Shown here piece by piece: positions 52,068 through 60,994 of a DNA stretch of 60,994 nt. Source of the stretch: Loigolactobacillus jiayinensis (GTDB lineage: Bacteria; Bacillota; Bacilli; Lactobacillales; Lactobacillaceae); assembly GCF_003946445.1 (NCBI RefSeq), contig NZ_RHOF01000019.1, positions 1 to 60,994 of the forward strand. The letters are read 5' to 3'. Position 1 is the first letter of the stretch, and the number at the start of each line of letters is the position of its first letter. The position numbers and the translations under genes were made by a program. Under the pieces are notes generated by a model. The model saw only the letters and a list, made by a program, of their open reading frames with translations, did no database searches and was not told the origin of the DNA.

Positions 52068-53264
52068 CTAACTATGGTAAGTTGCGTTGATTTTCACGTA
52101 ATCATAAGTCAGATCGCAGCCCCAAGCTTGCCCGTGGCCAGTGCCATTATGCAACTCGACGGCCACGTTGATCACAGTACCAGCTAATGGAGCTTCTAAT
52201 TTGCTGACATCAGTGGTTGCAGCGTGACTGGCTTGAATCATCGGTAACTCATTTAAAGTGACATCGACAGCATCTAGAGCCAAATGTGCATCGGTTTGAC
52301 CAATGGCCACCATGATTCGCCCCCAGTTAGGGTCTTCACCGTAAATGGCCGCCTTAACTAAGTTAGAACCAACAATAGCTTTAGCAACTTGCTGGCCTTC
52401 CAGGTCGGACCAAGCACCGTTAACAGTAACTGCAACAAGCTTAGTGGCACCTTCACCATCGGCGGCAATTTTCTTGGCCAATTCGCCAAGAATATAGGTT
52501 AATGCTGTGGCAAACGTGGCGTAATCAGCAGAAGTTTCAGTTAACGGGGTGTTACCGGCAACACCATTGGCCAATACTGTGACCATATCGTTGGTCGACG
52601 TATCGCCGTCAACAGTGATCTGGTTAAATGTGGTGTCAGTAGCTTGACTTAATAATTTCTGTAACAGCGTGCCGGAAATTGCCGCATCCGTTGTGACGAA
52701 GCCGAGCATCGTTGCCATGTTTGGATGGATCATCCCTGAACCTTTACAAAAGCCGCTAATGGTAATTTTCTTACCGTCAATCTGGCAAGTAACCGCAACG
52801 GTTTTAGCATGTGTATCAGTAGTCAAAACGGCTTCGGTAACTTTGGTATTGTCGGTTAATTGTAGTTGATCGATACCGGCAGCAATCACGTCCATCGGTA
52901 GTAGTTCACCGATGATCCCCGTTGAAGCAACACCGACTAAATCAGTGCTTAAACCTAATTTAGTTGCCGCCAGCTTTTGCATTTGGACAGCATCTTGTTC
53001 ACCTTGAGCACCAGTACATGAATTGGCGTTAGCGCTATTTAGTACAACGGCTTGCAATTGATGCTGCAGATTGATTGTTTGCTTAGTTAACTTGGTAGGT
53101 GCAGCTTGAAATTGGTTCGTCGTGTAAACGCCAGCGGCAGCAGCTGGTTGTTCTGAATACAGCCACCCCATGTCCAATTTTTCTTTGCGTAACCCAGCGT
53201 GGACACCGTCAGCTTTGAAACCTTGGGGCCAGGTAAATGGGATTTCTGTATATTTTGTTTCCAT
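52068..53264 (-). CDS. argJ: Bifunctional ornithine acetyltransferase / N-acetylglutamate synthase ArgJ
   Basis: Recycles the acetyl group from acetylornithine to glutamate. The self-cleavage site is intact: KGSGMIHPNMATMLGFVTTD with the Thr of MATML (about 190). GDTSTNDM near 232 and C-terminal GRIMVAIGQTDA are conserved. 398 aa. Whether it is mono- or bifunctional cannot be decided; no argA is visible nearby. Confidence 0.95.
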   Translation of the reverse strand: METKYTEIPFTWPQGFKADGVHAGLRKEKLDMGWLYSEQPAAAAGVYTTNQFQAAPTKLTKQTINLQHQLQAVVLNSANANSCTGAQGEQDAVQMQKLAATKLGLSTDLVGVASTGIIGELLPMDVIAAGIDQLQLTDNTKVTEAVLTTDTHAKTVAVTCQIDGKKITISGFCKGSGMIHPNMATMLGFVTTDAAISGTLLQKLLSQATDTTFNQITVDGDTSTNDMVTVLANGVAGNTPLTETSADYATFATALTYILGELAKKIAADGEGATKLVAVTVNGAWSDLEGQQVAKAIVGSNLVKAAIYGEDPNWGRIMVAIGQTDAHLALDAVDVTLNELPMIQASHAATTDVSKLEAPLAGTVINVAVELHNGTGHGQAWGCDLTYDYVKINATYHS

Positions 53265-54672: not shown

Positions 54673-55749
54673 ATGAAAAGTTATCTTATTTTAGAAGATG
54701 GTTTAACATTTGCCGGCGACGCTTTTGGCGCCCACATTGCCGCTGCTGGTGAAGTGGTTTTTAATACCGGCATGACGGGCTATCAAGAAGCAATCACCGA
54801 TCCTTCCTATAGTAATCAACTCATTACCTTTACTTATCCCTTGATTGGTAACTATGGTATCGACGCCACACACAATCAATCCGTACAGGCAAGTTGCGCT
54901 GCGGTGATCGTCCGGCAGCTGGCTGACCTACCCAATCATTACGCGCAACAAATGAATCTCGATGCATTTTTACAACAACAAAAAGTCCCTGGTATCCAAG
55001 GTATCGATACTCGGCAATTAACTAAACATATTCGCCAACACGGCACGCTGAAAGCTATTTTAACGACACAGCCTTTAACCGTCGCTTTTTCCGCCGCCTA
55101 TGCCGCAATTAAACAAAAAGAAGCGCCACTACAGCGCGCAACTTATACGACTAAACAGGCGCAACAACACGTGGTCTTGATCGACTTTGGTACCAAAAAA
55201 GCAATCATCGATCAATTATTGGCGCAGCATTGTAACGTTGATGTCGTGCCTTATACAACCTCATTGGCTGATATTGATGCTTTACAACCAGACGGTATCT
55301 TCCTATCTAATGGTCCTGATGATCCTGCCGATTACGAAATGGTTTTACCGTTGATTCAAGCACTCCAAGCCAAATATCCATTAGCCGGCATTTGCCTGGG
55401 TCACCAACTATTAGCCCTAGCTAACGGCGCCAAGACCTATAAGCTACAATACGGCCACCGTGGTTTGAATCATCCCGTTAAAAATATCGCCACTGGTAAA
55501 ACTATTTTGACTAGTCAAAACCACGGCTATGCAGTAGCCGTGGATTCGCTAGTAGATACACCGTTAGAAATGACTGCCTATGAGTTAAATGACGGTAGTG
55601 TGGAAGGCCTGCAGCACAAGAGTTTGCCAGTTATTTCCGTCCAGTACCATCCGGAAGCTAATCCTGGTCCTACTGATGCCCTAGGCTTTTTCACCGAATT
55701 TTATGACTTAATGAACGCCAATAAAGCGAAAAAGAGTAGCGTGGCGTAA
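54673..55749 (+). CDS. carA: Carbamoyl-phosphate synthase small subunit
   Basis: Glutaminase subunit that delivers ammonia to CarB. N-terminal domain with FNTGMTGYQEAITDPSY (about 31) and a class I glutamine amidotransferase domain with the catalytic Cys in GICLGHQLLALA (about 240) and HPEANPGPTD. 358 aa. Divergent from argCJBDF, so this is probably the arginine-specific copy and not the pyrimidine one. Confidence 0.96.
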   Translation: MKSYLILEDGLTFAGDAFGAHIAAAGEVVFNTGMTGYQEAITDPSYSNQLITFTYPLIGNYGIDATHNQSVQASCAAVIVRQLADLPNHYAQQMNLDAFLQQQKVPGIQGIDTRQLTKHIRQHGTLKAILTTQPLTVAFSAAYAAIKQKEAPLQRATYTTKQAQQHVVLIDFGTKKAIIDQLLAQHCNVDVVPYTTSLADIDALQPDGIFLSNGPDDPADYEMVLPLIQALQAKYPLAGICLGHQLLALANGAKTYKLQYGHRGLNHPVKNIATGKTILTSQNHGYAVAVDSLVDTPLEMTAYELNDGSVEGLQHKSLPVISVQYHPEANPGPTDALGFFTEFYDLMNANKAKKSSVA

Positions 55750-59144: not shown

Positions 59145-59204
59145 GAAAAAAATAAACCCAGGCTGCACCATAATTTACTTATGGTCCAACTTAGGTTTAT
59201 TTTG
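59145..59204. terminator. Convergent terminator with CATAA/TTATG apex
   Basis: AAATAAACC...GG.TGCACCATAA-TTTAC-TTATGGTCCA...GGTTTATTT, a long stem with A- and T-runs on both sides. Ends the carAB side on the plus strand and the YheO-like gene on the minus strand. Confidence 0.85.
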
Positions 59205-59219
59205 CTGGCTTACATTGCC

Positions 59220-59849
59220 TTATTTAGCGTCAATATAACTATACAACGTATATTTTGAAATATCGTAGTACGTTGAAACTTTATCACCAGACTTGGTGAC
59301 CAAAAAGGCGCCTTGATCGTTCAAGAAATGAATTCCTCGAATCTTATCGGCCTTCGTCATCAACGCAACTGGCTTACCAACTAACTTAACTGATTCTTCT
59401 AACAACTCGTCTAACAGCTGGTTTACATTTTGCGTAATTGGAACGTCGCTTTTTTCTGGTGCTTGCGCTTCGGTGAAGTGGCGCAACGTCGATTCGGCCA
59501 TCATCAAATGTGATATATCATAATTAATCGATAAAATTGCGTGTAGCTGTTGATCATCCTTTAGGTAAATGGTGCTGGACTTCAGCACTCGTCCATCACG
59601 GGTATGGGTCGTATAGTTAATACGATCTTGTAATTCCGCTGGATCTTTTTTGAGACTTTCCAACACAATTTCTGAAGGACCGTCAGCAATTTCACGTTCA
59701 GAGACCTGACCATTTTCAATTAAAATAATGGTATGGTCAATATTGCCTTGATCGACTCGGTGAATCACAACTTCACAATCAGGTCCAAACTGTCCTGCAA
59801 TCGCACGTCCAAGTTGACTAAGAAATTCCAATTGATTTTCCACTATCAT
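59220..59849 (-). CDS. YheO-like PAS / HTH transcriptional regulator
   Basis: 209 aa. The N-terminal YheO-type PAS domain (LGRAIAGQFGPDCEVVIHR, IINGPS-like REIADGPSEIVLESLKKD, LKSSTIYLKDDQQLHAILSINYDIS) and a C-terminal HTH (MTKADKIRGIHFLNDQGAFL, ISKYTLYSYI). A cytoplasmic sensor-regulator whose ligand is unknown. Follows the EamA gene by 7 nt, so it shares the fluoride-responsive leader. Confidence 0.87.
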   Translation of the reverse strand: MIVENQLEFLSQLGRAIAGQFGPDCEVVIHRVDQGNIDHTIILIENGQVSEREIADGPSEIVLESLKKDPAELQDRINYTTHTRDGRVLKSSTIYLKDDQQLHAILSINYDISHLMMAESTLRHFTEAQAPEKSDVPITQNVNQLLDELLEESVKLVGKPVALMTKADKIRGIHFLNDQGAFLVTKSGDKVSTYYDISKYTLYSYIDAK

Positions 59850-59856
59850 CCATCCT

Positions 59857-60738
59857 TTATTTTGAATCGGCTAATGCCTGTAAGCCGGTTGTCATTATGA
59901 TTAAAATTGTACCAATTAATTCAGGCCAGCCAAACTGGATCTGAAAAATAAGTACCGTCAAGATCGTTGACGTTAATGGCTCGAAAGCCCCTAATAAGCT
60001 AGTCATTGTTGGCGCAATAAATCGTAAACTTTGTAAAACGAATAGGTATGCAAATAGTGTACCAAAAATAATAACAAAGGCTACAATTAAAATACCGCGA
60101 AAATCCAATACTGGCAATGATTTTCCCCTCAAGAACAGTAAAAAGCTGACACCACCCAGTAACATCGCCCAACCAACAATCGGAACCGCGCCAAATTTGC
60201 GTAATAAGTGGCGCGGAAAAAGCGTATAAATTGCGGTACTCAACGCGGTTAGCAAGCCCCAAACAAAGCCAGTTGTTGAAATACTTAGCTGGTTTAACTG
60301 ACCGTGAGTCACTAGCAAGTAAGTTCCCACTAAGGCCAATATCACTGAGACCACGTCCGTTTTACGCGGCCGATGCCAATATCTGATTGCCAAATACACA
60401 ATGATCAATACTGGACTAAGAAATTGTAAAATCGTGGCGGTGGCGGCATTGCTGTGTTTAATTGCCATGAAATAAGTCAGTTGTGCTGGCAACATGCCAA
60501 TAAAGCTAAACACCAGTAACGCACCGGCCGAACGTGGCTGACGCCAGGGGGCATTCATCGCGTGAGGTTCTGTCGCGTAACCAAATAGTATCAATAAAAT
60601 ACCGGCGCCAATCATCCGAATGCAAACCAACCATCGCGGTGACATCTGATACGTTGTGAATAGTGCTTGTGCGGCAATCCCCGAAAAGCCCCACAGCAGC
60701 GGCCCCGCAATGGCTAAAATAATACCATGTAGCCGCAT
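59857..60738 (-). CDS. EamA/DMT family transporter under a fluoride riboswitch
   Basis: 293 aa with ten hydrophobic helices in two EamA repeats (LHGIILAIAGPLLWGFSG; TTGFVWGLLTALSTAIYTLF). The DMT superfamily exports metabolites and drugs. The ATG at 60738 follows AAGGGT at 7 nt. Upstream is a complete fluoride riboswitch, which implies induction when fluoride enters the cell; the protein may be a fluoride-stress transporter, although no DMT protein is known to me to export fluoride. Co-transcribed with the YheO-like regulator. Confidence 0.87.
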   Translation of the reverse strand: MRLHGIILAIAGPLLWGFSGIAAQALFTTYQMSPRWLVCIRMIGAGILLILFGYATEPHAMNAPWRQPRSAGALLVFSFIGMLPAQLTYFMAIKHSNAATATILQFLSPVLIIVYLAIRYWHRPRKTDVVSVILALVGTYLLVTHGQLNQLSISTTGFVWGLLTALSTAIYTLFPRHLLRKFGAVPIVGWAMLLGGVSFLLFLRGKSLPVLDFRGILIVAFVIIFGTLFAYLFVLQSLRFIAPTMTSLLGAFEPLTSTILTVLIFQIQFGWPELIGTILIIMTTGLQALADSK

Positions 60739-60782
60739 GTTCTTACCCTTTATCATGATCACTCATCCCTACCCACCTAAAT

Positions 60783-60873
60783 AAAAAAGACGCCTACTCA
60801 AAAGGGAGTGGTCCCTTCGAGTAGACGTCATCAATTACTTAGGTAATATTTTCAGCGAACGTCATCGCTATCT
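60783..60873 (-). promoter_or_regulatory. Fluoride riboswitch (crcB motif) with terminator
   Basis: RNA from about 60873 downward. P1 AGCG/CGCU (60869-60866 / 60857-60854) with loop AUGACGUU; P2 AUUAC/GUAAU (60847-60843 / 60838-60834); then UGAUGACGUCUAC. The loop GACGU (60863-60859) pairs with ACGUC (60828-60824), the pseudoknot of the fluoride aptamer, with a different base composition from known examples but full complementarity. The 3-prime strand continues into a terminator GACGUCUACUC/GAGUAGGCGUC followed by U6, which pairs the same ACGUC; fluoride should therefore switch expression on. Confidence 0.88.
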
Positions 60874-60879
60874 AAATTT

Positions 60880-60907
60880 ATTATACCGCAAAAATATTTT
60901 TTGTAAA
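60880..60907 (-). promoter_or_regulatory. Promoter of the fluoride-riboswitch operon
   Basis: Minus strand: -35 TTTACA (60902-60907), 16-nt spacer, -10 TATAAT (60880-60885), about 7 nt before the aptamer. Confidence 0.8.
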
Positions 60908-60994
60908 TAAACTTTTTTATTTACTAAGCTATTTTTTTGTTTGCCGGATTTAAAATAGAAGTGCAACATAAATAAAACTAGACCAAAAGGGCCA

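Follow-up and report, generated by a model that had tools for sequence, protein, structure and literature searches.

Fluoride riboswitch upstream of an EamA transporter gene

Fluoride probably induces, in Loigolactobacillus jiayinensis, a transporter of a kind that is not commonly associated with this ion, judging from the sequence of one locus and from the same pairing beside the crcB genes of a related species. Here, an RNA whose sequence and predicted structure support its identity as a fluoride riboswitch is placed to control a gene encoding an EamA/DMT-family protein. On balance we favor the reading that the locus is a fluoride-responsive ON switch, with an organic metabolite whose level fluoride disturbs as the most likely export cargo of the EamA protein. 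The window, meaning the whole stretch of 60,994 nucleotides that was analysed, equals one complete contig, C39, from an assembly of 127 contigs totalling 3.04 Mb. All parts of the riboswitch-EamA-regulator locus are on the minus strand, in the order promoter, RF01734 aptamer, terminator, EamA, PAS_6-HTH_22 regulator and hairpin, and the contig stops 87 bp past the promoter. The features are as follows.

60880..60907, minus strand: sigma-70-type promoter, TTTACA-16 nt-TATAAT, matching 11/12 consensus positions
60815..60878, minus strand: fluoride riboswitch aptamer with P1, P2 and pseudoknot (RF01734, 37.4 bits against a gathering score of 34)
60789..60829, minus strand: intrinsic terminator, the expression platform, which includes the 3' pseudoknot strand (17-pair stem and T-run; fold z -8.3)
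59857..60762, minus strand: EamA/DMT-family transporter of up to 301 aa (PF00892 in two stretches, 133.4 bits; predicted fold)
59220..59849, minus strand: YheO-type regulator, 209 aa (PF08348 PAS_6 and PF13309 HTH_22)
59150..59202, minus strand: hairpin after the regulator, possible operon end (fold energy)
60942..60994, strand not assigned: IS-element end, a neighbour of the operon outside the switch (recurrence at other contig ends)

The initial annotation had read a fluoride riboswitch in this leader, with a P1, a P2, a GACGU:ACGUC pseudoknot and a terminator competing for the same strand, and each of these elements was recovered within the coordinates it gave. The RF01734 match covers all 64 model positions (E 8.8e-7) and was the sole above-threshold match within the window when 4227 Rfam families were searched on both strands. 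P1 is AGCG:CGCU and P2 is AUUAC:GUAAU, and the five-pair pseudoknot joins the P1 loop (GACGU) to the 3' strand (ACGUC). A pattern that itself fixes some letters could read both strands in 122 of the 189 aptamers surveyed (not in the other 67); all five pseudoknot pairs are present in 117 of the 122, and GACGU:ACGUC is the commonest pair (52/122). Folded alone by a program that ignores pseudoknots, the aptamer is no better than its shuffles (z -0.2).

The 3' end of the promoter lies 1 nt ahead of the RF01734 match. Promoter-like sites numbered eight in the leader region versus 4.4 expected in shuffles, and TTTACA-16-TATAAT was the best of them. On the other side of the aptamer, the terminator (60829-60789) consists of 17 pairs followed by TTTTTT, with a hairpin of -27.8 kcal/mol that none of 200 shuffles equalled. 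It contains the ACGUC strand, so the pseudoknot and terminator states exclude each other. Together, the promoter, pseudoknot and overlapping terminator constitute a predicted transcriptional ON switch.

Fluoride stabilises the pseudoknot of this riboswitch class, preventing termination, and fluoride binding by the present aptamer would be expected from its class. Transcription would start at the 5' edge of the aptamer. When fluoride is absent, the ACGUC strand would pair into the terminator and transcription would halt ahead of EamA; with fluoride and Mg2+, the pseudoknot would hold that strand, the terminator could not form, and EamA and the YheO-type regulator would be transcribed. Consistent with this scheme, excerpts of PMC11139923 describe a fluoride-magnesium complex that upregulates transcription via the fluoride riboswitch. 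Regulation by the riboswitch is well supported: aptamer, platform and gene order, together with the recurrence in L. bifermentans described below, are read directly from the DNA.

The EamA protein and its possible cargo

The initial annotation had also placed a DMT-family protein and a PAS-HTH regulator downstream, and Pfam matches to PF00892, PF08348 and PF13309 bore this out. The EamA ORF may start at GTG 60762, with in-frame ATG codons at 60756 or 60738 also possible, and its 133.4 bits compare with a cut-off of 28.2. EamA was the only domain that Pfam reported in this ORF, with no PF02537 (CrcB/Fluc) or PF00654 (CLC) domain. Neither NCBIfam equivalog was reached, TIGR00950 scoring 122.7 bits against a cut-off of 230.2 and NF050091 (YddG) 40.6 bits against 300. 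A structure predicted from a seven-sequence alignment (mean pLDDT 73.2, pTM 0.68) had as its best solved match 5i20 (E 1.6e-6, TM 0.68, ~20% identity), which we take to be a YddG. It also matched the triose-phosphate translocator 5y78 (E 1.9e-5, TM 0.66), as well as CMP-sialic-acid and other nucleotide-sugar transporters and the choline importer LicB. Sequence searches of the EamA group and of the regulator against solved structures gave nothing at E 0.001. The protein thus resembles known EamA/DMT transporters in its two EamA stretches, its length of ~300 aa and its DMT fold, and differs from them in falling below both equivalog cut-offs, in its low identity to 5i20 and in lying under a fluoride riboswitch. 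The modelled fold fits an organic substrate without naming one, as a shared fold gives no substrate.

Could the EamA protein itself be a further kind of fluoride exporter? In excerpts of PMC11139923, fluoride exporters are named as the proteins most often encoded in operons that carry a fluoride riboswitch, and the L. bifermentans EamA gene adjoins crcB. Against this, EamA is the protein's only Pfam domain, the genome of the window already has four CrcB genes, and the solved folds closest to the model belong to carriers of organic solutes such as triose phosphate, nucleotide sugars and choline. With four CrcB genes and no fluoride-channel domain in EamA, we infer that a metabolite is the likelier cargo, and direct fluoride export by EamA is unlikely, indeed very improbable as an account of the locus. 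In the favored reading, fluoride would block enolase and other enzymes and so disturb the level of an organic metabolite, which EamA would export; the transporter would complement the CrcB proteins, whose genes lie at other places in the genome.

Other fluoride-linked genes are found in the same genome. Two further riboswitch matches lie on contig C45, at 52314-52371 (minus strand) and 54776-54838 (plus strand), one of 35.3 bits at a DUF190 gene that follows a pair of crcB genes and one of 28.9 bits, below the cut-off, at a P-type ATPase, indicating that a fluoride regulon exists there.

Recurrence of the pairing in L. bifermentans

The initial annotation had proposed a survey of related genomes for EamA genes with this leader. 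An alignment scan for EamA relatives found seven loci, six of them close, and a scan of named genomes with the single EamA protein found no relative. The pairing recurs in L. bifermentans DSM 20003 (contig C6, NZ_AZDA01000072.1), where an EamA protein 64% identical to that of the window has its own riboswitch, promoter and terminator. The order at this locus is a weak riboswitch match, ~600 nt, crcB, crcB, riboswitch and EamA. The riboswitch of EamA (41.7 bits) begins 51 nt past the crcB pair, and its leader has a promoter (TTGACA-17-TATATT) and an overlapping terminator; the first match, ahead of the crcB pair, scores 25.3 bits and is below the cut-off. Pfam identified the first crcB and tblastn matches to CrcB identified both. 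The leaders of the two species fold alike and have diverged in P1, in P2 and in the upper part of the terminator stem. Separately, we note that the ~600 nt between the weak match and crcB (L106:219-828) has no listed ORF of 60 aa.

The survey also found EamA orthologues lacking the leader. The closest orthologue is that of L. binensis 735-2 (76% identity), and a gathering-level RF01734 scan found no riboswitch there or at three Agrilactobacillus-group orthologues (two named Agrilactobacillus and one MAG titled Lactobacillus sp.); a permissive scan saw none at L. binensis and two of those three. Upstream of the EamA gene of Agrilactobacillus yilanensis, a T-box leader is encoded on the other strand (L193:3411-3655, minus strand). 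In a 41-row tree, both riboswitch-linked EamA proteins fall within one clade of seven (support 100/98), the other five members being the L. binensis EamA, a further L. bifermentans protein and the three Agrilactobacillus-group proteins. The window EamA pairs with that of L. binensis (98/95), not with L. bifermentans, and the L. bifermentans riboswitch EamA pairs with its own paralogue, a long branch (100/96). As the two are not sisters, either the pairing has two origins or it has persisted since they diverged, in a tree with some long branches.

These data bear on a different explanation, that the riboswitch is functional and fluoride-induced, but EamA came to lie behind it through gene shuffling and plays no dedicated part in resisting fluoride. 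In favour of this, an IS-type end sits immediately upstream of the operon. The ~50 bp at the contig end (60942-60994) are found again at five further contig ends in this genome (95-100%), and two weaker matches (84-86%) adjoin transposase-like ORFs of 340 and 341 aa, of which the 340-aa ORF, scanned with Pfam, matches HTH_38 and rve. The element is presumably of IS30 type. The assembly breaks on this recurring end, where the sequence upstream of the switch stops. On the other side of the operon are carA/carB (carbamoyl-phosphate synthase) and an arginine cluster, named from their translations, which also fits shuffling, as do the close orthologues without the leader and the rarity of the riboswitch-EamA association in the survey below (2/186 places in Lactobacillales, 0/50 wider loci). 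Arguing against it, the pairing is found in two species with diverged leaders and proteins and in different neighbourhoods, one of them beside crcB, and the non-sister placement in the tree, with its long branches, implies either two origins or retention. As to a link between the operon and the adjacent arginine and carAB genes, the EamA loci of L. bifermentans and L. binensis have different neighbours. Plasmid records held EamA relatives only below 60% identity at E 1e-40, and PADLOC gave no match. We consider shuffling without a fluoride role unlikely, while giving it appreciable weight.

The YheO-type regulator

The regulator ORF begins 7 nt past the end of EamA and carries PAS_6 and HTH_22 in one protein (107.9 and 59.7 bits), and it would be co-transcribed with EamA. 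The region after it (59150-59219) folds at -30.1 kcal/mol (z -5.1); the hairpin at 59150-59202 was not among the calls of a terminator scan. Two weak terminator-like sites lie within EamA (60528-60512 and 59972-59956). Of the seven further genomes in the genus sample, four carry a homologue of the regulator at 64-67% identity, and the genome of the window has a second copy on contig C58 (67% identity). An EamA profile search of five loci of regulator homologues found no EamA, and L. bifermentans has riboswitch-EamA without a YheO-type regulator. We therefore rejected EamA and the regulator as a conserved unit: their adjacency was seen only in the window among the loci compared.

The initial annotation had placed both genes under riboswitch control. 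For EamA this assignment gained support from the pair's recurrence in L. bifermentans behind the crcB pair, but the case for the regulator as part of a fluoride system is weak, as the gene adjoins EamA in the window only and its paralogue sits beside other genes. A part for the regulator in the fluoride response is the weakest element of the finding. The neighbours of the C58 paralogue, which by reading are amidohydrolase-like and M20-peptidase-like genes, may hint at what regulators of this family sense.

The regulator could nonetheless be the point of the operon, with fluoride inducing a YheO-type factor that resets other genes and EamA as an accessory. Its position immediately past EamA would suit such a role, and according to excerpts of PMC4519771, loss of Campylobacter Cj1387c raised expression of the adjacent Cj1388, which has an L-PSP domain. 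Cj1387c and YheO share the PAS_6 and HTH domains of the window regulator; Cj1387c adjoins an L-PSP-domain gene, in contrast to the transporter under a riboswitch found here. The adjacency restricted to the window, the L. bifermentans arrangement without a regulator and the two terminator-like sites inside EamA all speak against a regulator-centred operon, which we regard as improbable.

Distribution of fluoride riboswitches and their genes

Fluoride riboswitch matches at E 0.001 or better were found in 68 of 301 genomes of the family sample (106 places), and matches were present in 155/395 genomes of the order sample and 156/398 of the phylum sample. We read 189 places in Lactobacillales: the 106 of the family and 83 from other families, the latter made up of 22 given loci and 61 of at least 104 further places among the matches listed. 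For 23 of these 83 there is less than 1.6 kb of downstream DNA. Some of the weakest-scoring places are probably false matches.

The first gene, defined as an ORF of at least 70 aa starting within 600 nt, could be assigned at 186 of the 189 places. Enolase was the commonest (49, the 428-aa first genes), followed by crcB (34), CLC (33), Na/H exchanger (30) and P-type ATPase (13); rarer were HAD (7), MutS-like (4), DUF190 (3) and metallophosphatase (3), and rarest were EamA (2), an unmatched 189-aa protein (2) and six singletons. Class names rest on one Pfam representative each, with the ATPase named via its relative. The statement in the initial annotation that these riboswitches mostly control crcB or CLC genes was thus overstated for Lactobacillales. 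The leader of the window is typical of its class in its score above the cut-off, conserved loops, pseudoknot and terminator-type ON platform, and atypical in being followed by EamA and a YheO-type regulator rather than by commoner partners such as enolase, crcB, CLC or Na/H exchanger.

An EamA profile built from 38 tblastn-defined rows missed a 25%-identical control (L196) under default filters and found it at 5e-11 with filters off. With filters off, EamA was downstream at 4 of the 189 places, representing three genes: that of the window, that of L. bifermentans (counted from both riboswitch matches) and one in another Lactobacillaceae genus. Beyond these three, nothing in the Lactobacillales places was better than 0.15. 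The third gene (45% identity) is fourth after riboswitch-crcB-crcB-GNAT and begins 118 bp past the GNAT gene, and could use its own promoter. Among 50 wider Bacillota loci (30 of ~3 kb and 20 further stretches), the same search gave nothing better than E 0.55. The association has a narrow range, with EamA as first gene in 2/186 Lactobacillales places and 0/50 wider loci.

The survey also revealed fluoride islands with three riboswitches in another genus of the family (L085 and L086), preceding an enolase gene, a metallophosphatase and the unmatched 189-aa protein. Pfam found nothing in the latter, which presumably resembles pyrophosphatases.

Relation to known systems and implications

Excerpts of PMC11139923 list among riboswitch-linked proteins fluoride exporters, Na/H antiporters, pyrophosphatase, haloacid-dehalogenase-fold enzymes, enolase, formate hydrogen lyase and chorismate mutase. 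In excerpts of PMC7266159, ykkC subtype 2d riboswitch candidates occur with EamA or TauE transporters. That arrangement is similar in having a riboswitch class ahead of an EamA gene, and differs in its RNA, an orphan class in place of the RF01734 of the window. EamA is mentioned in the reference list of PMC9574504, as seen in an excerpt. Within a full-text literature search whose scope lies outside the primary survey (Baker 2012), no paper joined fluoride riboswitch, crcB motif or fluoride resistance with EamA or DMT, and searches of titles and abstract beginnings for Loigolactobacillus with fluoride, or fluoride riboswitch with Lactobacillus, returned nothing on point.

More tentatively, and short of an even chance in our judgment, EamA may be a genuine part of a fluoride-stress regulon in Loigolactobacillus that exports a metabolite accumulating under fluoride-inhibited central metabolism, a PAS-type regulator having been added in one species as a further layer of control. 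Candidates would be an amino-acid-like compound or even a phosphorylated intermediate of glycolysis from upstream of the blocked enolase step, the latter being a substrate that the triose-phosphate translocator fold would allow.

The riboswitch-EamA pairing would add a transporter type to the fluoride-riboswitch genes listed in the excerpts of PMC11139923. When a gene lies under a riboswitch of known ligand class, its unknown function in stress can be approached directly. In the present case, one well-defined leader ties EamA to fluoride in two species, making the question of what is exported approachable with NaF as both inducer and stressor.
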